A DNA stretch of 64,000 nt. Origin: Nocardiopsis potens DSM 45234 (GTDB taxonomy: Bacteria; Actinomycetota; Actinomycetes; Streptosporangiales; Streptosporangiaceae). The notes beneath the pieces were generated by a model. The model worked only from the letters and a program-made list of their open reading frames with translations. It was not told the origin of the DNA and made no database searches. This document shows, one piece after another, positions 4,193-52,766 of this stretch (its first letter is position 1; the number at the start of each line of letters is the position of its first letter). Location of the stretch: the NCBI RefSeq assembly GCF_000341105.1, contig NZ_ANBB01000021.1, positions 62,001 to 126,000 of the forward strand, given 5' to 3'. The position numbers and the translations under genes are program-made.

Positions 4193-5263
4193 ATGCCGTC
4201 CCTACGAGTCAGCCTGGGGTACGAAGTCGAGGTCCGGGGCCGCACCCGCGAGGTCGAGCGGCGCGCCTTCGACAACGTGCTGGCCCAGGCCGAACTGGCC
4301 GACGAACTCGGCTACGAGGCCGCCTGGTTCGTGGAGCACCACTTCACCCGGGGCTTCTCGCACTCCTCCGCCCCCGACCTGGTCCTCGCCGCGATCTCCC
4401 AGCGCACCCGCCGCCTCCGGCTCGGCCTGGGCGTGGTGCTGCTGCCCTTCCAGCCGCCGATCCGCACGGCGGAGCGGGTGGCCACCCTGGACGTGCTCTC
4501 CGGCGGCCGGGTCGAGTTCGGCACCGGCCGCGGCGCCTCCCCGCTGGAGTACCAGGCCTTCCAGCGCCCCTTCGAGCAGTCCCGGCGGATCTGGGAGGAG
4601 TCGCTGGAGGCGGTGCTGGAGATCTGGCGGGCCGACGGCGCCCCGGTCACCATCGACAGCCCCTACTTCCAGGTGCCCGGCGTCTCGGTCTACCCCCGCC
4701 CGACCCAGGAGCCGCACCCCCCGGTCTGGGTGGCCTCCACCAGCCTGGAGGGGTACCTGGCGGCGGCCCGCCGCGGCCACAACCTGCTCGGCATGACCAT
4801 GCTCAAGGGGCTGGACGACGTCGCCGAGGACATCGCCGCCTACAAGCGGACCCTGGCCGAGCACGGCTTCGACCCGGACACCCGCCGGGTCGCGCTGATG
4901 ATCCCCTGGCACGTGGCGCCCACCCGGGACGAGGCGGTGCAGACCGCCTCCGACGCGGTGCTCTGGTACATCCGCCGCCAGGTCAACCTGGTCACCCCGC
5001 CGGACTACTACGACGCCCGGCACGCCACCCACAGGGTGCTGGGCCAGCTGGCCGCCGGCATGCCCCCGGAGGAGGCGCTGGAGGTGCTGGGCCGGCACCA
5101 CATGGTGGTCATCGACGACGTGGCGGGCTCGCGCGCCGCGGTCGAGCGGATCCGCGCGGCGGGCGCCACCGACCTGCTGCTCCAGGCCCAGGTCGGCGGG
5201 CTCGCCCATGAGCACGTGTGCAACTCGATCAAGCTCTTCAAGCAGGAGGTGGTCCCCGAATGA
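4193..5263 (+). CDS. LLM-class (luciferase-like) flavin-dependent monooxygenase, paralogue 1
   Basis: The 356-residue protein has the bacterial-luciferase TIM-barrel fold. Recognisable motifs are the AWFVEHHF segment near residue 45, RLRLGLGVVLLPFQPP, and the VATLDVLSGGRVEFGTGRG signature. Members oxidise substrates with reduced FMN supplied by a separate reductase or with F420. Type II Baeyer-Villiger monooxygenases belong here, and the flavin reductase at 10482 could be its partner. The gene lies behind operator site 1 and overlaps the next gene by four bases (ATGA at 5260-5263), which suggests coupled translation. The ATG at 4193 follows ACCGGAGGCGCC. The substrate is unknown. Confidence 0.85.
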   Translation: MPSLRVSLGYEVEVRGRTREVERRAFDNVLAQAELADELGYEAAWFVEHHFTRGFSHSSAPDLVLAAISQRTRRLRLGLGVVLLPFQPPIRTAERVATLDVLSGGRVEFGTGRGASPLEYQAFQRPFEQSRRIWEESLEAVLEIWRADGAPVTIDSPYFQVPGVSVYPRPTQEPHPPVWVASTSLEGYLAAARRGHNLLGMTMLKGLDDVAEDIAAYKRTLAEHGFDPDTRRVALMIPWHVAPTRDEAVQTASDAVLWYIRRQVNLVTPPDYYDARHATHRVLGQLAAGMPPEEALEVLGRHHMVVIDDVAGSRAAVERIRAAGATDLLLQAQVGGLAHEHVCNSIKLFKQEVVPE

Positions 5264-6375
5264 GCCGGGTGCCGGAACCGGCGTGGATCCGCGCCGACGC
5301 CCCCTTCCCCGCCCCGGCCACCGGGGGCGGGGGGCCGGGGGAGGTACTGCTGGTCTCGCCGGACGCGGAGACCGCCGTCCCGCTGACCGCCGCCGACCGC
5401 GCCGCCGCGGTGGAGGTGGGCGCCGCGGTGCTGGCCCGGGCCGGCGTCGGCCCCGGCGACCGGGTGGCCGTCGCCCTCAACGGCGACGGCGAGCAGACCG
5501 GCGCGCTGGTGGCGGAGGCGGCGGCCGCCGCGGGCGCCTCGGCCGCCTCGCTGGGGCCGCGCGGGCGGATGCGGCTGCACCGGGCGCTGGAGTCGCTGGC
5601 CGCCACGGTGCTGGTGGCCACCCCAACCGGTGTGCTGGACCTGCTGGCCCGGATGCACGCGGAGTTCCTGGTCGACCCGCTCGACCTGGGGCTGCGCCGG
5701 ATCCTGCTGGCCGGGGAGATCACCGGGGAGCACGTCCGCCGGCAGCTGGCCGCGGAGTTCGACGCCGAGGTCGCCGACCTGTTCGTCGACCCGCTGCTCC
5801 AGGTGCCGGTGGCCTGCCGGGACGGCGCCGGCGGCGGGCTGCACCAGCCGCGGCCGGGCCTGGTGGAGGCGGCCCCGCCGGCCGAGGACGAGCTGCTGCG
5901 GGCCCCCTATCCGGCGGGCACCGCCGAGCTGGTCACCCGGCCGCTGTGGCATTCGGCGCTGGCAGGGGCCGCGGTGCGCACCGGCTTCGCCGCCGCGGTG
6001 GCCGAGGGCGCCGACCTGGTCCCGGTCCCCGGGCACACCGTGGGCGACAGGGTGCTGGTCCGGGGGCGTTGGCTCTCGCTGCCCCGGCTGGAGCGGGCGC
6101 TGGCGCCGATCGACGGCATCGGCTCCTGGGAGCTGAGGGTGTCGCGCCCGGGCACCTTGGACACCGCCGCCCTGCACGTCTCCTTCACCCGGGAGTCCCT
6201 GGTGGGCAACCCGATGTGGACCAAGCGGATCGAGCAGGCCCTGCTCGCCGCCGCCCCGGTCCACATCGGCGTGGTCACCGGCCCCGCCGACCCGGACCTG
6301 CCGCCCGGCCCCGCGTCCGGCTCGCTCGCCGACGAACGCGGCCACCACCTGGGCCGCGACCGCGGCGCCCTGTGA
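5260..6375 (+). CDS. PaaK-like adenylate-forming homologue lacking the P-loop
   Basis: The start was placed at ATG 5260, overlapping the LLM stop and preceded by AGGAGG at 5244-5249, giving 371 residues. Segments such as GDRVAVALNGDG, LVATPTGVLDLLARM and LRRILLAGEITGEHVRRQL align by eye with phenylacetate-CoA ligase (PaaK) N-terminal regions, and a C-terminal segment MWTKRIEQAL resembles the PaaK C-domain. No Ser/Thr/Gly-rich ATP-binding loop (SSGTTG) is visible and the length is about 60-70 residues below PaaK. It may be an inactive or repurposed ligase that works with the upstream LLM. A similar LLM plus degenerate ligase pair is at 23034-25689. Confidence 0.7.
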   Translation: MSRVPEPAWIRADAPFPAPATGGGGPGEVLLVSPDAETAVPLTAADRAAAVEVGAAVLARAGVGPGDRVAVALNGDGEQTGALVAEAAAAAGASAASLGPRGRMRLHRALESLAATVLVATPTGVLDLLARMHAEFLVDPLDLGLRRILLAGEITGEHVRRQLAAEFDAEVADLFVDPLLQVPVACRDGAGGGLHQPRPGLVEAAPPAEDELLRAPYPAGTAELVTRPLWHSALAGAAVRTGFAAAVAEGADLVPVPGHTVGDRVLVRGRWLSLPRLERALAPIDGIGSWELRVSRPGTLDTAALHVSFTRESLVGNPMWTKRIEQALLAAAPVHIGVVTGPADPDLPPGPASGSLADERGHHLGRDRGAL

Positions 6376-8376: not shown

Positions 8377-8440
8377 CGATGGTCTTGGCGCTGCGGGCCC
8401 GTCAGAGCGCTCTGACGGGCCCGCAGCGCCAAGACCATCG
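8377..8440. repeat. 64-bp perfect palindrome, copy 1
   Basis: Two 32-nt arms (8377-8408 and 8409-8440) are perfectly complementary with no spacer and centre on AGAGCGCTCT. The arm starts CGATGGTCTTGGCGCTGC. It lies 22 bases after the stop of the FadD3-like gene and 35 bases before the stop of the convergent DUF35 gene, as a bidirectional terminator would. Related copies are at 12255, 36259 and, degenerate, 50057. Confidence 0.9.
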
Positions 8441-12254: not shown

Positions 12255-12318
12255 CGATGATCTTGACGTTGCGGGGGCATCAGAGCGCTCTGATGCCCCC
12301 GCAACGTCAAGATCATCG
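12255..12318. repeat. 64-bp perfect palindrome, copy 2
   Basis: The 32-nt arms (12255-12286 and 12287-12318) are perfectly complementary with the same AGAGCGCTCT centre as copy 1. The arm starts CGATGATCTTGACGTTGC. Differences from copy 1 occur on both arms, so pairing is kept. It follows the methyltransferase stop codon by 12 bases. Confidence 0.9.
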
Positions 12319-18417: not shown

Positions 18418-18786
18418 ATGTCGATCTCCGATCTGTTCGCCTCGGCGGACGACCAGCTCGATGTGCACGAACGGCTCCGCCTCTACGTCGAGGGGGTGCG
18501 CGAGCGGGCCGACCGGGCGGCGCCCTGGGGGCCGGACACCGTCGGCGTCCCCCGGCAGAACTGCGACAGCGGCCTGCTGCGCATCAACGACGTGGCGTTC
18601 TACGCCAACGCGCGGCACGAGATCTCGGCCTTCGCCGACCTCTGCCTCAACCTGCTCTCGCTGCACCGGCCGCGCGACGGCGGCGGGATCAGCAGCGGCC
18701 CCGGGCCCGCGGTGCAGCGCTGCCAGTGCTGCATGCTCCGCTGGCCCTGCCCGACCGTCCGCGAGATGAGCGCCCTGCTGGGGTGA
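18418..18786 (+). CDS. Small protein of unknown function with Cys-rich C-terminus
   Basis: I do not recognise this 122-residue protein beyond its resemblance to small actinobacterial hypotheticals. It is hydrophilic and helical, has four Cys (one near 43 and the C-terminal CQCCMLRWPCP), and no signal peptide or membrane segment. The RCQCCMLRWPCPT tail could bind a metal. The start at 18418 follows GGAAGGGG. A 30-bp palindrome covers its promoter. Its last 45 bases and stop codon are part of a 56-bp tandem duplication that extends toward the TetR gene at 18891. Confidence 0.65.
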   Translation: MSISDLFASADDQLDVHERLRLYVEGVRERADRAAPWGPDTVGVPRQNCDSGLLRINDVAFYANARHEISAFADLCLNLLSLHRPRDGGGISSGPGPAVQRCQCCMLRWPCPTVREMSALLG

Positions 18787-18853
18787 GCGCATCCAGGTGG
18801 CCCTGCCCGACCGTCCGCGGGATGAGCGCCCTGCTGGGGTGAGCGCATCCAGG
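18742..18853 (+). repeat. 56-bp tandem duplication across a stop codon
   Basis: 18742-18797 is repeated at 18798-18853 with one mismatch (GCGAGATG versus GCGGGATG). The unit contains the last 14 codons of the 18418 gene, its TGA and 11 further bases. Because the copy is downstream of the stop codon, the protein is not altered. The second copy ends at the TetR-gene operator. Confidence 0.9.
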
Positions 18854-33811: not shown

Positions 33812-36244
33812 ATGACCAGTGCACCCACCGGAACCGGCCGCGGGCCGGTCCCGCAGGCCGTTCCCGAGCACCGGGCCAAGGCGCTCGCCGCCCGGGCCGG
33901 GGTCCCCGTGCCGCGCGGCGCGGTGGCCGGTTCGGCGGCCGGCGCGGCGCGCGCGGCCGCGGGGCTGCGGCCCCCGCTGGTACTGAAGGCCCACGGCCCC
34001 GGGCTGCTGCACAAGAGCGACGCCGGGGCGGTCCGGCTCGGGCTGGCCGGACCGGACGAGGTCGCCGCCGCCGCGGAGGAGATGGGCCGGTCCCTGGCCG
34101 GGGCCGGGTACGCCGCCGCGGGGTTCCTCGTCGAGGAGCAGGCCGAGGCCGGGGTGGAGCTGATCGTGGGCGTGCTGGCCGACCCGGCGTTCGGCCCGGT
34201 GCTGATGGTCGGCCTGGGCGGGGTCTGGACCGAGGTACTGGACGACGCCGCGGTGCTGCCCTGCCCGGTGCGCCGGGGCGAGGTCGAGTCGATGCTGGCC
34301 GGGCTGCGCGGCGCCGCCCTGCTCGACGGCGCCCGGGGCGCCGCCCCCGTGCACCGCCCGGCCCTGCTCGACCTGGTCATGGCGGTCGGCGGCCCCGGCG
34401 GCCTGGCCGAGCGGCTGGGACCCCGACTGGCCGAGTTCGAACTCAACCCGGTCATCGCCGGCCCGCACGGTGCGGTCGCGGTCGACGCCCGGCTGCTGCT
34501 CCGGGACGGCGACGGCGATCCCGATGCGCTCCCGGCACCGCGAGAGGACGGAACGGCGGAGGCCGGAAACGGCGCACCCCCGGCGCCGCAGAGGCACGGG
34601 GACGGCGAACCCGGCGCACCCCGCACACCGCGAGAGGGCGGGACCACAGGGAACGGAGACGGCGCACCCCCGGCGCCGCAAGGGCACGGGGACGGTCCCG
34701 GCGCGCCCCCCGCGTCGCGGCGGGACGGGGGCGCGAGGGGCGGGGCTGGCGGGCCCTCCGGGGCCGCCGATACCGGCGCCGATACCGGAACCGACTTCAC
34801 ACGGCTGTTCGCTCCGCGCGGGATCGCCGTGGTCGGGGCCTCGGCGAGCCGACCGTCGTTCGGCAACATGCTCCTCGGGCAGTACCGCGCCGCCGGCTTC
34901 TCCGGGACGCTGGTCGCCGTGCATCCCGAGGCGGCCGAGGTCGACGGGGTGCCCGCGGTCCCCTCGCTGCGCGACGTCCCCCCGGAGGTGGACTACGCGC
35001 TGGTCGCCGTCCCGGCGCGCGGCTGCGCGCAGGCGGTGCGCGACGCCGCCGGCACCGGCATCGGCTTCGTCCAGGTGGTGAGCGGCGGGTTCGCCGAATC
35101 CGGGCCGGAGGGGGCGGCGCTGGAGGACGAGCTGCGCACCGCCGCCCGCCGGAGCGGCGTCCGGCTGCTCGGCCCCAACTGCATGGGCGTCTACTCCCCC
35201 GCCGGGGGCCAGACGTTCCTCGGCGGCGCCCCGGGGCGGCCCGGCCGGATCAGCCTGGTCTCGCAGAGCGGCGGGCTGGCCGGCGAGGTGGTCCGGGTGG
35301 GCGAGCGGCGCGGGCTGCGGTTCGCGAAGGCGGCGACCCTGGGCAACAGCGCCGACGTCACCCCGGCGGAGCTGGTCCGGTTCCTCGCCGCCGATCCCGG
35401 CACCGGCGTCCTCGGCCTCTACCTGGAGGACCCGCGGGACGGGCGGGCGCTGGCCGAGGCGCTGCAGGCGTGCGCGGGGCGGCTCCCCGCGGTCGCGCTG
35501 ATCGGCGGCCGGACCGCGCAGGGCGGGCGGGCCGCCGCCTCGCACACCGGCGGGATGGTCCGCGACGCCCGGATCTGGACCGGGCTCGCCGAGCGGTGCG
35601 GGCTGGCCCTGGTGGACGGCCAGGACGCCCTGATCGGCGCGCTGGACTTCCTGGAGCTGCACGCGCACCGGCGGGCCGGCGGCGGCCCGGGCGTCCTGGT
35701 GGTCGGGCCGAGCGGCGGGGCGAGCGTGCTGGCCGCCGACGTGTTCGACGCGGCCGGGGCCCGCCTGGAACCGCTCCCCGGCGCCGCCCGCGCCGCCCTG
35801 CGCTCGCTGGGCCTGGGCGCCGGCGCGCCGCTCGGCAACCCGCTGGAGATACCGCTGGGCCCGCGGGGCCGCAAGGACCTGGCCCGGCCGGCCGCCGCCG
35901 CGGTCGCCGCGGAGAGCCCCGACGGGTCGCTCCCGGACATCGTCGCGCACGCCAACGTGCAGAGCTTCGCGACCTTCGCCGCCCCGGGCGCGGACGGCGG
36001 GGCGGTCCGCGACGGCCTGCTGGAGTACGTGTCGCACCTGGCCGCGCTCCAGGAGGAGCTGCCCGCCTCCCGGGTCACCCTGGTGCTGCGCAACCCCGAG
36101 TGCGGCCCGCCGGACCTCCTGGACGCCCTCCGCCCGGCCGCCCGGCGCGCCGGGATCCCCTGCTACACCTCGATGGAGGGCGCCTCCGCCGCGATCGCCG
36201 CGGGCAAGGCCTTCGCCCGCGCCCGCGCGGCCGCAGAGCGCTGA
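33812..36244 (+). CDS. Acetate--CoA ligase (ADP-forming)-like acyl-CoA synthetase, fused beta-alpha order
   Basis: The 810-residue fusion begins with an ATP-grasp domain (residues about 8-235: AKALAARAGVPVPRG, LVLKAHGPGLLHKSDAGAVRLGL, GVELIVGVLADPAFGPVLMVGLGGVWTEVL, FELNPVI). A Gly/Pro/Ala/charged linker of about 90 residues with internal repeats follows. Next come a CoA-binding domain from about 328 (LFAPRGIAVVGASASRPSFG) and a succinyl-CoA-ligase-like domain (LGPNCMGVYSP, SLVSQSGGLAGEV, ASHTGGM with the family His). It would make acyl-CoA with ADP release, or run in reverse to gain ATP. Most family members have the opposite domain order. The ATG follows GAGGAGTTCCGC. A 64-bp palindrome lies 14 bases after the stop. 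Confidence 0.85.
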   Translation: MTSAPTGTGRGPVPQAVPEHRAKALAARAGVPVPRGAVAGSAAGAARAAAGLRPPLVLKAHGPGLLHKSDAGAVRLGLAGPDEVAAAAEEMGRSLAGAGYAAAGFLVEEQAEAGVELIVGVLADPAFGPVLMVGLGGVWTEVLDDAAVLPCPVRRGEVESMLAGLRGAALLDGARGAAPVHRPALLDLVMAVGGPGGLAERLGPRLAEFELNPVIAGPHGAVAVDARLLLRDGDGDPDALPAPREDGTAEAGNGAPPAPQRHGDGEPGAPRTPREGGTTGNGDGAPPAPQGHGDGPGAPPASRRDGGARGGAGGPSGAADTGADTGTDFTRLFAPRGIAVVGASASRPSFGNMLLGQYRAAGFSGTLVAVHPEAAEVDGVPAVPSLRDVPPEVDYALVAVPARGCAQAVRDAAGTGIGFVQVVSGGFAESGPEGAALEDELRTAARRSGVRLLGPNCMGVYSPAGGQTFLGGAPGRPGRISLVSQSGGLAGEVVRVGERRGLRFAKAATLGNSADVTPAELVRFLAADPGTGVLGLYLEDPRDGRALAEALQACAGRLPAVALIGGRTAQGGRAAASHTGGMVRDARIWTGLAERCGLALVDGQDALIGALDFLELHAHRRAGGGPGVLVVGPSGGASVLAADVFDAAGARLEPLPGAARAALRSLGLGAGAPLGNPLEIPLGPRGRKDLARPAAAAVAAESPDGSLPDIVAHANVQSFATFAAPGADGGAVRDGLLEYVSHLAALQEELPASRVTLVLRNPECGPPDLLDALRPAARRAGIPCYTSMEGASAAIAAGKAFARARAAAER
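34540..34700 (+). repeat. Direct repeat inside the ligase linker
   Basis: A unit containing ACGGCGCACCCCCGGCGCCG, then CA-A/G-GGCACGGGGACGG occurs at about 34571-34605 and 34660-34694, with a related GAACCCGGCGCACCCCGC segment between them. It encodes the repeated GAPPAPQ-HGDG linker of the ADP-forming ligase. Confidence 0.7.
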
Positions 36245-36258
36245 GGGACCGCCCTCCC

Positions 36259-36322
36259 CGATGCTCTTGACGTCGCGGCCCCATCAAGGCGCTCTGATGG
36301 GGCCGCGACGTCAAGAGCATCG
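36259..36322. repeat. 64-bp palindrome, copy 3
   Basis: The arms 36259-36290 and 36291-36322 pair at 30 of 32 positions; the mismatches are next to the centre (ATCAAGGC versus ATCAGAGC). The arm starts CGATGCTCTTGACGTCGC. It lies 14 bases after the ADP-forming ligase stop and 54 bases before the stop of the convergent small gene. Confidence 0.9.
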
Positions 36323-46686: not shown

Positions 46687-47295
46687 CAGCGGCCCTCCGC
46701 GATCCATGCCCGAAATATGACGATCACCTAGAATGCCGGATGTTTACGCGGGTCCGGCTCGGATGTGCGCGGACACCGGGGCCTCTACCCCTCCGGAACC
46801 CCGGCGGCACGCGGACTTTACGACATTGTGAGCGGCCCATTTCGGCCGCCGGGAATGCTGTCCGGGACCGCCTCCGGGGGTCTACCGTGGTAGTGAGGCC
46901 TTCGACGCGGCGCCGGCGATCGCATTCCTGGCACAGCGGTATCGCACGGACACCCGCAAGGACGGTCCTCACCGTCGCACGGGGCGACGACCGGGCGGAG
47001 CACTCCGCCCGCCGCCCTCCGATGCCCGGTGGCCCCACCGGCCCACTCTCCGTCCATGTGGGCCGGTGGCGGCGTCTCGGCGCGGCCGCCCGCGCAGGGC
47101 CGCCCGCCGCCCCCGGGGCCGCCGCGGCACGACGCCCGCCCCCCGTTCCGGGACTTCCCGGGCGGACCGCGCGCGCACCGGCGGTGACGTGCCGTTCCGC
47201 CCCCGTACGCCCGCCTCCGCCGGTTCGGCCGCACCGCGGCGCAGGCCCTACCATTGGTCGCAGTCCCGTACCGGCCGAAGGAGCCAACCGAACCG
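46687..47295. other. 609-bp divergent region between permease and hisS
   Basis: I see no gene. The first 60 bases upstream of the permease are AT-richer, with TCTAGGTGATC as a possible leftward promoter. A small CTACC-GT-GGTAG inverted repeat lies at 46882-46893. No T-box-like structure for hisS was recognised. Confidence 0.45.
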
Positions 47296-48618
47296 ATGTC
47301 CGATCAGCGCGTCATCCGCCCGACCCCCATCAGCGGCTTCCCCGAGTGGCTGCCGGAGACCCGGTCCGTGGAGCAGCGCTGGCTGGACCATATCCGGGCG
47401 GGGTTCGAGCGCTACGGGTTCGCCTCGGTCGAGACGCCCTCGGTGGAGAACCTGGACGTCCTGATGGCCAAGGGCGAGACCTCCAAGGAGGTCTACACGC
47501 TGCACCGGGTGCACGACGACGGCGACGACTCCGAGGCCCGCCTGGGCCTGCACTTCGACCTGACGGTCCCGTTCGCCCGCTACGTCGCCCAGCACTTCAA
47601 CGACCTGGTCTTCCCGTTCAAGCGGTACCAGATGCAGCGGGTCTGGCGCGGCGAGCGCCCGCAGGAGGGCCGCTACCGCGAATTCACCCAGTGCGACATC
47701 GACGTGATCAACGTCGACAGCGTGCCGCTGCACTTCGACGCCGAGGTGCCGCGGATCGCGCACGAGGTGCTGTCCGGGCTGGACCTGCCCGCCTGGACCA
47801 TCGGCATCAACAACCGCAAGGTGCTGCAGGGCTGCTACGAGGGGATCGGCGCCGCCGACCCGATGGCGGTCATCCGCGCCGTGGACAAGCTGCACAAGAT
47901 CGGCGACGACGGCGTCCGCCTCATCCTCACCGAGGAGGCCGGTCTCACCTCCGCGCAGGCCGACACCTGCCTGGAGCTGGCCCGGATCCGCGGCGCGGAC
48001 CGCTCGGTGGTCGACGCCGTCCGCAAGCTCGGCATCCGGTCCGAGCTGCTCGCCGAGGGCCTGGAGGAGCTCGGCTTCGTCCTGGACTCGCTGGCCGACC
48101 TGGAGGGCGGCGTGCTGGCCGACCTGTCCATCGCGCGCGGCCTGGACTACTACACCGGCACCGTCTACGAGGCCGCCTTCGACGACGACCCCGACTACGG
48201 CAGCATCGTGGCCGGTGGCCGCTACGAGAACCTGGCCGGCCAGTTCATCCGGCGGCGGCTGCCCGGCGTGGGCATCTCGATCGGGCTGACCCGCATCTTC
48301 GCCAAGCTCGTCGCCGAGGGGCGGCTGGCCGGCGGGCGGACCTGCCCGACCGACGTGCTGGTCGTCGTCCCCTCCGACGAGCGCCGCGGCGAGGCGCTGC
48401 GCACCGGCGCGCTGCTCCGCGAGCGCGGCTTCAACACCGAGGTCTTCCACCAGGCCTCCAAGGTGGGCAAGCAGGTGCAGTACGCCTCGAAGAAGGGCAT
48501 CCCCTTCGTCTGGTTCCCCCCGTTCGACGACGGCAAGCCGCACGAGGTCAAGGACATGGGCAGCGGCGAGCAGTACGAGGCCGACCCGGCCGCCTGGGAG
48601 CGGCCCGCCGCCGGCTGA
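47296..48618 (+). CDS. hisS: Histidyl-tRNA synthetase
   Basis: The 440-residue class II synthetase has IRPTPISGFPEWLPETRSVEQRWLDHIRAGFERYGFASVETPSVE, LHFDLTVPFARYVA and FKRYQMQRVWRGERPQEGRYREFTQCDID (motif 2), the histidine-specific ARGLDYYTGTVYEA, GGRYENLAG and GVGISIGLTRIF (motif 3). The C-terminal anticodon-binding domain is present. This sequence type differs from the common actinobacterial HisRS that starts KAPKGTYD, so it may be the only HisRS or a second copy. The ATG at 47296 follows AAGGAGCC; the upstream GTG at 47254 precedes the SD and is rejected. Confidence 0.93.
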   Translation: MSDQRVIRPTPISGFPEWLPETRSVEQRWLDHIRAGFERYGFASVETPSVENLDVLMAKGETSKEVYTLHRVHDDGDDSEARLGLHFDLTVPFARYVAQHFNDLVFPFKRYQMQRVWRGERPQEGRYREFTQCDIDVINVDSVPLHFDAEVPRIAHEVLSGLDLPAWTIGINNRKVLQGCYEGIGAADPMAVIRAVDKLHKIGDDGVRLILTEEAGLTSAQADTCLELARIRGADRSVVDAVRKLGIRSELLAEGLEELGFVLDSLADLEGGVLADLSIARGLDYYTGTVYEAAFDDDPDYGSIVAGGRYENLAGQFIRRRLPGVGISIGLTRIFAKLVAEGRLAGGRTCPTDVLVVVPSDERRGEALRTGALLRERGFNTEVFHQASKVGKQVQYASKKGIPFVWFPPFDDGKPHEVKDMGSGEQYEADPAAWERPAAG

Positions 48619-48645
48619 GGCGGGACCGGCCGGCCGGTCAGGCAC

Positions 48646-49089
48646 GGCGCCCCGCGGGGCCGGGGTCCAGGCGGGCAGCGAAGGCGGCGGCAGGGACCGG
48701 CTGGTCGGTCAGGCGCGGCGCCCCGCGGAGCGAAGGTCCAAACCGGCACCGACGGCAGCGGTAGGGGCGGGGCCGGGCGCCTCACCCGAGCGCGGCGCCC
48801 CGCGGAGCGAAGGTCCAAACCGGCACCGACGGCAGCGGTAGGGGCGGGGCCGGGCGCCTCACCCGAGCGCGGCGCCCCGCAGAGCGAAGGTTCAAGCAGG
48901 CAGCGAAGACAGCAGTGGGCACCGGTCGGCCGGTCGGGCGCGGCGCCTCACGAAGTGCAGGTTCAGGCGGGCGGCGACGGCGGCGGTGGGGGCGGGGCGA
49001 GGGTAGTCGCCCGGGCGCGGCGCCTCACGGGGTGAGGGTTCAAGCGGGCGGCGAGGGGGCGGTGGGGGACCGGCCGGTCGGTCGGGCGC
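48646..49089 (+). repeat. Tandem array of six 71/77-bp repeats (left arm)
   Basis: Six head-to-tail units start with GGCGCC at 48646, 48717, 48794, 48871, 48942 and 49019, with lengths 71, 77, 77, 71, 77 and 71. Units 2 and 3 (48717-48793, 48794-48870) are identical. The two lengths differ in the second half: the 71-bp type ends near CCGGTCGGTCGGGCGC, the 77-bp type near GGGGCGGGGC...CCGAGCGC. No gene is visible. An inverted array follows at 49630. Confidence 0.9.
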
Positions 49090-49629
49090 GGCGGGGCGGG
49101 TCGGGGCGGCAGAGGTGGTCCGGGGTGGCGGGTTCGCCGTGCCCGCGTCGCCCCGGGCGCCGGGGCCGGCCGCCTGGAAACCGCTACCCCTCTCTGACCT
49201 GGGTGAATACACAGGGTGATGGCGAGGTGGGGTGCCCTGCGCACCGCGAGAGCACCCCGGTGATTCCCGGGCGCGCATCCCGGGCCGGATCGGCCCCTTG
49301 GCAGCCCGGTTGGGGCCGTTCGAGCCGATGTTCGGGGGTTCGAGCCGCCCGGAAGGCCGGGATGCAAGGGGCCGGAACCCGGGGAGGGCGGAGGGCAGGG
49401 GCGGGATGTCGCTTTTGTTCTCCCGGGAGGCCTTGTTTGGCCACTCCGGGTAACCGGCGAGGGGGCGGTGGGGACTTCGAGGCTCACTACTCGCTGGTAG
49501 ATGTAATCGGAGTGCTGCGGAGGTGCGCAGGGCGCCTCCACCCCCGCCCGTTCCCCGCCGCGAACCAGGCATATAGGGATAAGACCCCCAGGTAGGCCAG
49601 GGCGAGCGTCCCGCCCCCTTCACTAGCAC
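49090..49629. other. Spacer between the inverted repeat arrays
   Basis: These 540 bases are flanked by the two arrays and differ from them. They contain the AT-richer stretches GTGAATACACAGGG (49202) and CTCACTACTCGCTGGTAGATG (49482) and short runs GTTCGAGCCG that are not tRNA. Small frames on both strands lack SD, family resemblance or coding bias. I see no gene, transposase or attachment site. Confidence 0.4.
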
Positions 49630-49981
49630 CGCCCCGCCCCCTCCCGCCCTCGCTGCCCGTCTTGACCTTCACTCTGCGGAGCGCCGCACCCGACCGACCG
49701 GCCGACCGGTCCCCCTGCCGGCCTTCGCCGCCTGCTTGAGCCCTCGCTCGGTGAGGCGCCGCGCCCGGGCGACCGCCTCCGCCCCGCCCCTACCGCCGCC
49801 GTCGGTTCCGGTTTGGACCTTCGCTCTGCGGGGCGCCGCACCCGACCGACCAGCCGGTCCCCCTCCCGCCGTCGCCGCCCGTTTGAACCTCACCCCGTGA
49901 GGCGCCGCACCCGACCGACCGGCCGACCGGTCCCCCTGCCGGCCTTCGCCGCCCGCTCGAACCCTCACCCTGTGAGGCGCC
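49630..49981 (-). repeat. Inverted array of the same repeats (right arm)
   Basis: Read on the minus strand, units beginning GGCGCC end at plus-strand positions 49685, 49760, 49837, 49906 and 49981, with lengths about 56 (partial), 75, 77, 69 and 75. They match the left array in reverse complement (for example CGCTCTGCGGGGCGCC and GAACCTCACCCCGTGAGGCGCC), including the alternation of the two second-half types. The two arrays can form a very large hairpin. Confidence 0.85.
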
Positions 49982-50056
49982 GCGCCCGGGCGGGGCACCT
50001 CCAGCCTCTCCCCCTCCCTGAGTTCCTCGTTTTCCTCGTTGCAACGGTTCCTCGTT

Positions 50057-50120
50057 GCGATGGGCGCAGCGGCCATTTGACGGCAAGCGCTCTGACAGGG
50101 CCGCGACGCCGAGGGCGCCG
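50057..50120. repeat. Degenerate copy 4 of the 64-bp palindrome
   Basis: The sequence runs CGATGGGCGCAGC...AAGCGCTCTGACAGGGCCGCGACGC around a centre at 50088/50089. It keeps the AGCGCTCTGA core and the GGCCGCGACG right arm of copy 3 but has lost most pairing. It lies between the repeat array and the first LuxR-type regulator. Confidence 0.6.
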
Positions 50121-50133
50121 TTTCGGCGGAACA

Positions 50134-50175
50134 GCCGCTACCCCTGGTAGCAGATCATTCCGCCGGAGTAGCGGC
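50134..50175. promoter_or_regulatory. Nested inverted repeat upstream of the first NB-ARC/LuxR gene
   Basis: GCCGCTAC (50134-50141) and GTAGCGGC (50168-50175) pair, and the left arm also pairs locally as CTAC-CCCT-GGTAG. The element lies 160 bp upstream of the start at 50337 and is a candidate control site. Confidence 0.35.
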
Positions 50176-50336
50176 CTCCCCGCTCCCACCAGTGGTTTTT
50201 CCTCCGCGGGTGCCGGAACCGGCCAATCCGCGAACACCGACCGCGCCCCGTGGAAGACTTGGCGCCGGGACGGAACAGGCCGCCGCCGCGGCCCGCGACG
50301 TCCTCCCGTCGCGGTCGCCCCAGTGTGAACGAGGCC

Positions 50337-52766
50337 ATGTCAGACCCCCGCCATAACCTGCCCTTGTCCGCCGCCCCCATCGGCCGCGAGCGGGACATCG
50401 CCGACCTCCTCCGGATCGTCCGGAACTCGCGCTCGGTATCGCTCGTCGGGGCGGGGGGCATCGGCAAGACCCTGCTCGCCGTCCGCGTCGCCGAGGCCGC
50501 CCTGCCCGCTTTCGAGCACGGCGCCCGCTTCGTCGACCTGAGCCGGGTCTCCACCCGGGACCAGGCGACCGCCGCGATCGGGCACGCGCTCGGCGTCCCC
50601 GAGGCCGCGGGCGCCTCCGCCGTGGAATCGGTGGCGATGGCGCTGCGCTCCCGCTCCGTGCTGCTCCTACTGGACACCTGCGAGCACCTCACCCCCGCCC
50701 TGGGCGGGCTCTGCGAGGAGCTGCTCGCCGCCTGCCCGCGGCTGCACATCCTGGCCACCGGGCGGGAGCCGCTGCGGGTCGGGCGCGAGGTCGTCTGGCG
50801 GGTCCCCCCGCTCGCCCTGCCGCCGTCCCCCTCGCCCTCCCCGTCCGGGGAGCCCCGGCCCGAGCCCGCCTGCTCCCCCGAGGAGGCGGTGCGGCACGAG
50901 GCGGTCCGGCTCTTCGTCGAGCGCGCCACCGCGGCCCGGCCCGGCTTCAGGCTGACCCCCGGCAACACCGAGGCGGTGCTGCGCATCTGCCGGATGCTGG
51001 AGGGCGTCCCGCTCGCCCTGGAGCTGGCGGCGGCCCGGATCCGGGTGCTCAGCGCCGAGCAGGTGCTGGAGCGGCTGGACGACCGGTTCCGGCTGCTCGC
51101 CGCCGGCGCGGACGGCCTGCCGCCCCGGCAGCGCACCATGCGCGCCGCCCTGGAGTGGAGCCACGACCTGCTCTCTCCGGAGGAGCGGGTGCTCTTCCGC
51201 CGCCTGGCGGTGTTCTGCATCTGGACCGCGGACAAGGTGGGCCCGGTGTGCGGCTTCCGCGAGCTCCCCGCCGGGAGCGCCGACCGGGTGCACGCCGCCC
51301 TGGTGGACAAGTCGCTGGTCACCGCGGACGTGCACGAGGACGGCGCGGTGACCTACCGGATGACCGAGACGGTGCGCGCCTTCGCCGCGGAGCGGCTCGC
51401 CGAGGCCGGCGAGGAGGACGAGGTCTGGCGGCGGATGCTGACCACCGCGGCGCCCTACCTGGAGGGGCTCGCGGCCCACCTCACCGGCCGGGTCGACTGG
51501 GACGAGCGGATGCTCACCATCCGCATGCTCGACCGGTGCCTGGAGAACACCCTGCAGATGCTGGACCGGGCGGTGCCGCTCGGCCTGGTCCAGGAGGGGC
51601 TGCGGATCTGCGTCGCGCTGCGCTTCCACTGGTTCGTGCGCGGCCTGCAGACCCAGGCCCGCACCCGGCTGGAGCGGCTGCTCGCGGTGCCCGCCGCGCG
51701 CACCCCGGTGCGCGCCCGGGCCGCAGCGGTCCGCTCCGAGATGCTCCTGCCGCTGGACGGGCCGCAGGGCGCCGCCTCCGCCGCCCAGGAGGCCCTGCAG
51801 GCCGCGCTGGCCTGCGACGACCCGGCGCAGGGCATCGCGCACACCACCCTGGCGATGGCCTCGCTGCGCCGGGGGGACGGCGCCGAGGCGCTGCGGCACG
51901 GCCGCCGGGCGCTGCGGCTGGCGATCGCCTCCGGGGAGCGGCTCACCGAGATCTGCTCGCTGGGCGCGCTCTCCCAGATCGCGCGCTCGCGCGGCGACTT
52001 CGACTCCTCCGAGGTCTTCCTGACCCGCGGCATCGCGATCGGCCAGGAGATGGGCGACCGCTGGTGCGTGGCCCGCTGCCTCAACGCGCTGGGCGTGGTC
52101 TCCACCCGCCGGGGCGACATGGAGGCCGCCGCCCGGCAGCTGGGCGAGGCGCTGAACGTCTTCATCGAGATGGAGCTGCTGCCCGACATCGCGCGCTGCA
52201 CCGCCGGCCTGGGCTACCTGGACCTGGCCCGGGGCGACGTCTCCGGCGCCCGCCGCCGCCTCTCCTGCTGCCTGCGGCTGAGCGTCGCCAGCGGGCGCAG
52301 GCTGGCGGTGGCCCGCGCGCTGGAGGCGCTCGGCGGGCTCGCCGCCGCCGAGGAGCAGCCGGAGCGGGCCGCCTCGCTGGCCGGCGCCGGGGCCGCGCTC
52401 CGCGCCTCGCTGGGCCTGGTCGCGCCGCACGCCGAGGCGATCCGCGCCGAGGCGGCGGCGGTCCTGTCCGAGGAGGCCGCGGAGGAGGCCTGGAATTCCT
52501 GGCGCACACTGCCGCTGGAGCAGGTGGTGGAGCGCGCCCTCTTCTTCCCGACCCCGCGCAGGGCGCTGCCCTCCCTGCTCACCCGCCGGGAGAGGGAGAT
52601 ATCGGTGCTGGTCAGCAAGGGCCTGTCCAACCGGGAGATCGCCGAGCGGCTCACCATCAGCCAGGCGACCGCCGCCCGGCACATCGCCAACATCTTCCAG
52701 AAGCTGCTGTTCACCTCGCGCACCCAGCTCGCCGAGTGGGTGCAGCGCAACGGCCTCGCCCCCTGA
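50337..52766 (+). CDS. Large LuxR-family regulator with NB-ARC-like ATPase and TPR repeats, copy 1
   Basis: The 809-residue protein has an N-terminal ATPase (GRERDIADLLRIV, Walker A GAGGIGKT at 38-45, VLLLLDTCEH as Walker B, then CRMLEGVPLALELAAARI) and a winged-helix segment (PEERVLFRRLAVF). A long helical TPR-like region (about 380-740) and a C-terminal LuxR helix-turn-helix (LTRREREISVLVSKGLSNREIAERLTISQATAARHIANIFQKL) follow. Such regulators sense an unknown ligand or partner through the repeats. ATG at 50337 is used; GTG at 50325 is possible. A paralogue follows. Confidence 0.9.
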   Translation: MSDPRHNLPLSAAPIGRERDIADLLRIVRNSRSVSLVGAGGIGKTLLAVRVAEAALPAFEHGARFVDLSRVSTRDQATAAIGHALGVPEAAGASAVESVAMALRSRSVLLLLDTCEHLTPALGGLCEELLAACPRLHILATGREPLRVGREVVWRVPPLALPPSPSPSPSGEPRPEPACSPEEAVRHEAVRLFVERATAARPGFRLTPGNTEAVLRICRMLEGVPLALELAAARIRVLSAEQVLERLDDRFRLLAAGADGLPPRQRTMRAALEWSHDLLSPEERVLFRRLAVFCIWTADKVGPVCGFRELPAGSADRVHAALVDKSLVTADVHEDGAVTYRMTETVRAFAAERLAEAGEEDEVWRRMLTTAAPYLEGLAAHLTGRVDWDERMLTIRMLDRCLENTLQMLDRAVPLGLVQEGLRICVALRFHWFVRGLQTQARTRLERLLAVPAARTPVRARAAAVRSEMLLPLDGPQGAASAAQEALQAALACDDPAQGIAHTTLAMASLRRGDGAEALRHGRRALRLAIASGERLTEICSLGALSQIARSRGDFDSSEVFLTRGIAIGQEMGDRWCVARCLNALGVVSTRRGDMEAAARQLGEALNVFIEMELLPDIARCTAGLGYLDLARGDVSGARRRLSCCLRLSVASGRRLAVARALEALGGLAAAEEQPERAASLAGAGAALRASLGLVAPHAEAIRAEAAAVLSEEAAEEAWNSWRTLPLEQVVERALFFPTPRRALPSLLTRREREISVLVSKGLSNREIAERLTISQATAARHIANIFQKLLFTSRTQLAEWVQRNGLAP

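Follow-up and report, generated by a model that had tools for sequence, protein, structure and literature searches.

A dispersed non-coding repeat family with facing satellite arms in Nocardiopsis potens, probably a foldback-like mobile element

The window, i.e., the whole stretch of 64,000 nucleotides of Nocardiopsis potens DSM 45234 analysed here, carries a member of a dispersed family of non-coding elements with about 125 copies in the genome. This family is probably a lineage-restricted, high-copy and non-autonomous mobile element of a foldback-like type, which has satellite arms and shares its termini with a 64-bp palindrome (P64) that also occurs alone. Its foldback order would be an end, an inward-facing tandem array, the conserved core, a second inward-facing tandem array and the other end. 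We compared the genome of the window (G000) with five other genomes of the same genus (G001 to G005), where G004 is assembled in 3 contigs.

The arrays of the window copy were recovered by direct reading, by TRF and by a repeat finder (Table 1). The initial annotation had described six plus-strand units that face about five minus-strand units, and matching with a profile built from the 42 conserved nucleotides of the unit recovers the same sets. On the plus strand, the conserved parts start at 48645, 48716, 48793, 48870, 48941 and 49018 (spacing of 71, 77, 77, 71 and 77 bp), while those on the minus strand are found at 49645, 49721, 49796, 49867 and 49942 (76, 75, 71 and 75 bp). The reported identity of two units was reproduced by direct reading (48713-48789 and 48790-48866, 77 bp each). 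In the output of the repeat finder, the top five inverted pairs by length measure 81-177 nt and are 74-86% complementary.

With regard to the boundaries, the annotated 540-bp core (49090-49629) stands as a core but not in its limits, i.e., the best-conserved part covers only about 460 bp (approximately 49160-49620). For the element as a whole, the arrays were placed correctly but its right extent was too short, since the element runs on to about 50120. No gene is called between the end of hisS at 48618 and the LuxR-type regulator, in agreement with the earlier view of an array region free of genes. The left arm adjoins hisS, and the right end is degenerate. The left arm of the core-internal inverted repeat also matches other G000 copies on the reverse strand.

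Table 1. Coordinates of the element copy, its flanking genes and the solo P64 palindromes in the window.
Feature	Position	Strand	Remark
Solo P64, between two gene 3' ends	8377..8440	.	
Solo P64, after gene 3' end	12255..12318	.	
Solo P64, between two gene 3' ends	36259..36322	.	
Flanking hisS, histidyl-tRNA synthetase	47254..48618	+	context only
Left arm, six tandem units	48619..49095	+	starts right after hisS stop; outer limits approximate
Conserved core	49160..49620	+	core searches of G000 and G004
Core-internal inverted repeat, left arm	49231..49259	+	repeat finder; partner 49508-49536
Near-invariant core 23-mer	49488..49510	+	125 G000 places at up to 3 mismatches
Core-internal inverted repeat, right arm	49508..49536	-	repeat finder
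Right arm, five tandem units	49623..49995	-	reading, TRF, unit profile; outer limits approximate
Type-2 subterminal region	50000..50087	-	resembles ends of other copies; limits approximate
Degenerate half of 64-bp palindrome, element terminus	50088..50120	-	
Flanking LuxR-family regulator with TPR repeats	50250..52766 (start maybe ~50325)	+	context only

To characterize the architecture, we used 80 copies, i.e., the window copy, 39 further G000 copies (L041-L079) and 40 G004 copies (L080-L119), in which the unit profile has 740 hits. Orientation was counted for 77 of them, leaving out L051 and L070 (near contig ends) as well as L081 (insertion sequence in the copy). None of the 721 units in these copies points the wrong way, i.e., all face the core, and 72/77 copies have at least two units in both arms. 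The number of units per arm ranges from 0 to 11 on the left and from 0 to 10 on the right. Long inverted arms of tandem subrepeats around a middle part are also what characterizes foldback elements. Away from a core, units were found as a single cluster of two in 857 kb of G000 scanned and, for G004, only as the displaced right arm of L081. The units are no common scattered repeats without a conserved arrangement, which had been named as a reason to dismiss the structure; rather, the dispersed copies compared keep the inward-facing layout. When inverted array pairs were sought independently of any family model, G000 yielded 13 (480 kb scanned) and G004 yielded 3 (220 kb scanned), and none turned up in 400 kb of G001, G002, G003 and G005 together. 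The insertion in L081 (contig C2 of G004, ~726 kb) carries an ISL3-family transposase gene (Pfam DDE_Tnp_ISL3, 4326-5705, minus strand) and lies in the core.

The core seems to be conserved as sequence, in blocks. A coding function was ruled out, as no reading frame is open in more than 27/78 copies and the core lengths are random modulo 3 (28/26/26 among the 80 copies, with extrapolated ends). Like foldback elements, the element is non-coding and non-autonomous. A structured non-coding RNA was rejected as well, given that no conserved structure with covariation was found: an alignment of 735 units shows conservation of the unit part at most of its positions, while the apparent unit hairpin has no covariation there. 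The consensus fold of the core is weak on both strands (-12.9 and -23.4 kcal/mol, 79 copies), and no Rfam family reaches its gathering threshold in the window (one match with E 0.77 is far under the cut-off of its family). Both observations disfavour the non-coding RNA locus considered initially. A consensus scan for promoters of the sigma-70 type found none in 48500-50400.

A search with the whole structure finds long relatives at other places of the window genome as well as in the same-genus G004. Searching with the core, all of the best 40 places scored match in each of the two genomes, with identities of 83-88% for the G000 copies besides that of the window and 67-83% for G004. These counts are lower bounds, i.e., there are at least 40 copies in G000 and at least 40 in G004. 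The suggested search for further copies in the genome was most productive with the core 23-mer, which occurs with up to 3 mismatches at 125 places in G000 (64 plus, 61 minus) and at 16 places in G004. At the same threshold it is found 0 times in G001, G002, G003 and G005, as is a reversed control. For the element, too, four of the six same-genus genomes give no match, and a family-wide search, in which two candidates were scored per genome, returned 2/341 genomes at E <= 1e-8. Short weak hits in 25 further genomes of 41 (E ~1e-6 to 1e-3) were regarded as noise from GC-rich sequence. No element match was obtained from plasmid, phage and viral collections at the sensitivities used. In a broader contig collection, which may omit genomes near the window, the core 21-mer has one match, in Pseudomonas viridiflava; it comprises 22 exact bases, otherwise a 12-base match at E 0.45, and was taken as chance.

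That the arrays are an assembly artefact, which was initially named as a possible refutation, is unlikely because the same architecture is present at 40 or more places in G004 with its 3 contigs. The G000 draft contigs C1 and C46 (both ends) stop inside element copies, such that 125 may not be the actual number of copies. That is, the element family breaks assemblies. Assuming 125 copies of about 1.3 kb, it makes up an estimated 2% of the G000 genome.

The element looks mobile, since its presence differs between two species of the genus. When comparing contig C46 (165 kb) with the syntenic stretch of G004, 3/6 G000 copies are at shared sites and 3/6 are not (one G004 copy is outside the aligned stretch). 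At the L061 site, about 17 bp in G004 correspond to about 1.27 kb in G000; for L078, the alignment with G004 ends where the gene does. The comparison of the window locus across relatives, proposed along with its annotation, shows a hisS site without the element in G001 to G005 (reading, TRF). Including two from the C46 comparison, nine sites are shared between G000 and G004. The other seven were found separately, with long flanking pieces that are 86-96% identical. For two of the nine (L043/L092 and L070/L088), the core is reversed relative to its flanks, where the reversal of L070/L088 is judged from one flank with L070 being near a contig end.

These data also bear on the alternative of a chromosome-organising or regulatory array, in which a nucleoid or segregation protein would recognise the 42-nt unit part and the copies would serve as domain markers. 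The units may bind a protein, and in favour of such an array the unit part is conserved without structural covariation, the inward orientation is fixed, and the conserved core blocks are long. If an element depended on nothing but its ends, strong internal conservation blocks would furthermore be surprising, and they argue against the mobile reading. On the other hand, the 34 best-scoring G004 chromosome copies are randomly spaced (CV of the gaps 1.04, with 0.71-1.30 for random placement), half of the six copies in the syntenic stretch are not shared, and there is no match in four of six same-genus and 339/341 family genomes. We consider such an array quite improbable. Of the functions proposed initially, a regularly spaced nucleoid or parS-like site is disfavoured by the random spacing together with the presence/absence differences, while a single-locus site is excluded by the ~125 copies.

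Element copies sit at the 3' ends of genes and keep away from divergent promoters. To classify the sites, genes were called with a simple composition model and compared to a background of 297 gaps with a length of 100 bp or more, which are from G000 contigs only and include those occupied by the elements themselves. The classification leaves out ten palindromes too near the edge of their stretch as well as two large copies at contig ends. Divergent gaps host 2/78 large elements (P = 1.7e-7) and 0/25 solo P64 (P = 0.0011) compared to 81/297 in the background. Convergent gaps, in turn, account for 32/78 large elements, 16/25 solo P64 and 52/297 background gaps. The remaining 9 solo P64 are in tandem gaps, and for 23/25 a stop codon is at most 67 bp away.

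Such a preference for convergent gaps and the proximity to stop codons would also be expected from a 3'-end RNA device, i.e., if palindromes and arms serve as bidirectional terminators or 3' stabilisers that are selected at convergent ends. The P64 arms fit this idea, too, since they are complementary with compensatory swaps (CCC and GGG blocks exchange on both, 35 copies). However, a mobile element that avoids promoters would show a like placement, and 3/6 sites are not conserved between the two species. In addition, the device is at odds with a core that has no strong consensus fold, a unit hairpin without covariation and the missing Rfam gathering match, such that we rate it as unlikely.

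Solo P64 copies number 72 in G000 and 31 in G004, with none in the four other same-genus genomes and none for the control. The three in the window are near-perfect, lie just past stop codons and look like a separate tiny mobile palindrome. Direct flanks of 3 bp are present for 10/38 solo copies (shuffled mean 3.6, P = 0.0002) and absent for 28/38; direct flanks of 4 bp were observed for 0/38, and inverted flanks are not enriched. The solo P64 thereby combines the properties of a prokaryotic MITE (short, non-coding, inverted repeats, target duplication). After turning all copies with the C-richer flank to the left, a C-run precedes and a G-run follows the palindrome, where this way of orienting the copies by itself promotes C in the last three bases of the left flank. 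This suggests that the solo P64 targets the loop of a GC hairpin and duplicates 3 bp upon insertion; the hairpin might be a terminator.

Two subterminal profiles match 28/78 element sides in G000 and 6/80 in G004. In a re-check, two matches per genome turned out to be intact palindromes beside the element, which leaves 26/78 and 4/80 sides. The 26 sides of G000 terminate in a region containing one half of P64 or preserve remnants of it, and most subterminal ends begin with the 32-nt half palindrome. The other 52/78 and 76/80 sides are without an end, two per genome having the intact palindrome instead. A subterminal region on both sides is found for 8/38 G000 and 2/40 G004 copies. Inspecting the flanks of the 8 G000 copies with both ends by eye, we saw no consistent target duplication; with flanks so judged, the large element departs from foldback elements in its lack of a target-site duplication.

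The half palindromes at the ends could also result if the large element inserted into the centres of P64 copies that were already present. In favour of such an insertion, the half palindrome of the window at the hisS site has a P64-like hairpin as its counterpart in G004. Against this, the empty L061 site of G004 has no P64, and the half palindromes are biased in subtype, i.e., the GGG block is found in 1/21 readable large-element ends versus 5/13 local solo P64. The half palindromes, mostly of one subtype, may represent either a shared terminus or an insertion target; given this bias and the empty L061 site without P64, we tentatively prefer shared termini over P64-centre insertion. Intact P64 are located right beside the large-element copies L052 (4894-4957) and L065 (3489-3552) and are not split by them. 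Two palindromes, L075 7170-7212 (43 bp) and G004:C1 ~2582953-2583040 (88 bp), combine the P64 terminal motif with other interiors, which hints at further palindromic elements in a broader family.

A foldback-like mobile element of this kind would be moved by a DNA transposase that acts on the half-palindrome termini, with a preference for inserting into C-run/G-run hairpins, perhaps terminators, after stop codons. Its arrays would grow and shrink by unequal exchange, and the arms could provide multiple protein-binding or recombination sites. We found no transposase tied to the element ends and, within the ~1.43 Mb of G000 and G004 scanned, no gene enclosed by an unassigned inverted pair of ends. 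The ISL3-family gene of L081 was rejected as mobilising enzyme, as it was seen in only one of the compared copies. A derivative of IS110/IS1111 was rejected, too, since its partner Transposase_20 has 0 matches in G000 (3 in G004). High-copy extragenic palindromes at gene 3' ends would also fit a REP/BIME-type system, in which a RAYT (Y1 tyrosine) transposase is responsible for the movement. Nevertheless, such a system is very improbable: Pfam Y1_Tnp has 0 matches in both G000 and G004 while being present in the four other same-genus genomes and 5/14 controls, and the units face one way within each arm.

We also compared the cores among each other. The median core identity is 0.833 within G000, 0.657 within G004 and 0.645 between the two, where the latter leans toward similarity because the G004 sample consists of the best 40 matches to the window core. 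For seven orthologous pairs, the partner ranks 1, 3, 10, 13, 14, 14 and 17 among the 40 G004 copies and 4, 11, 19, 19, 20, 25 and 29 among the 40 G000 copies, i.e., it is not consistently the closest copy. In the tree, copies group mostly by genome, but the separation is incomplete, with two of the 40 G004 copies (L080, L081) falling among those of G000.

Tracts of near-identity were studied for 10 pairs picked for high core identity, for which the alignment of the tandem arms is uncertain. In these pairs, the tracts span much or all of the core and drop in the arms. L085 and L086, for instance, are 97-100% identical from -60 to +660, 58-70% further left and 60-63% further right; since the identity is back at 97-100% in the outermost windows, the arm tracts are patchy. 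For L054/L062, identity is 92-98% from -360 to +360 and then 50-78% up to +720, such that the drop starts inside the core. From these alignments we infer gene conversion among dispersed copies, because whole-element copying alone would not break identity inside the core. Conversion would account for both the tracts and the similarity within a genome. Two of the initial suggestions thus hold in part, namely a recombination-related site, with regard to the shared core tracts, and an expanding satellite, with regard to arms of 0-11 units.

Conversion could even be the means of spreading. In a self-propagating conversion element, a break or nick in the core would provoke repair from other copies, such that the family becomes homogenised and spreads mainly by ectopic conversion with little movement by a transposase. 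The core-centred tracts of the 10 chosen pairs, the highly conserved core blocks and the grouping of orthologous-site copies mostly by genome rather than site are all compatible with this scenario. Still, conversion alone leaves a L061 copy opposite an empty relative site unexplained and ordinary homologous repair between long repeats would give tracts as well, which is why we think this explanation improbable. A combined scheme is doubtful, though conceivable: the core would initiate recombination, the arms would give homology for strand exchange and core flipping, and the ~125 copies would co-evolve, while entry into terminator-like hairpins would proceed via the termini shared with P64. If true, the family overwrites itself genome-wide. 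In any case, a species pair with shared, empty and homogenised sites allows a direct measurement of how dispersed bacterial repeats evolve in concert.

The literature searched, largely without subscription papers, contains no description of the element family. All comparisons with known systems are by description. Among the systems considered, the closest bacterial kind found are the minisatellite-bearing MITEs BrickBuilt and MITE464/PgRS of Porphyromonas gingivalis (PMC4596501), which are likewise non-coding, intergenic, host-restricted and equipped with internal tandem repeats. BrickBuilt is described with 19 copies, a direct array of 23-nt units and ends that resemble IS5-family elements of its genome; both terminal inverted repeats are present in 4/19 copies (PMC4596501). 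That is, as for our family, one or both terminal inverted repeats are missing in most copies, and the termini are common to another element type. In contrast to BrickBuilt as described there, with its direct minisatellite array, leader and tail, the present family has two facing arrays of 71-77-bp units across a conserved core (facing arrays in 72/77 copies) and ~125 copies.

With regard to architecture, the closest system in these sources is Tetris, a foldback transposon of Drosophila virilis with target duplications of 8-10 bp (PMC4079207); common descent is not claimed. According to its description, Tetris also has terminal inverted repeats that contain tandem repeats, is non-autonomous with no transposase found and shares its termini with a small element (DAIBAM there, P64 here). 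Tetris differs in being eukaryotic and in its target duplications (PMC4079207), as none was seen for the large element here. Foldback architecture with satellite arms is thus known from eukaryotic transposons, and a family of ~125 copies would show its occurrence in bacteria. REP, BIME and RAYT systems, as far as covered by PMC2817692, are extragenic, palindromic, high in copy number and species-specific, too; they differ from the present family in that G000 and G004 have no Y1 transposase match and that the 71-77-bp units do not alternate within an arm.

Finally, the window contains two further tandem repeats, i.e., two imperfect 90-bp copies at 34506-34695 (81% matches), apparently unrelated to the element, and two nearly identical 56-bp copies at 18742-18853 (98% matches).
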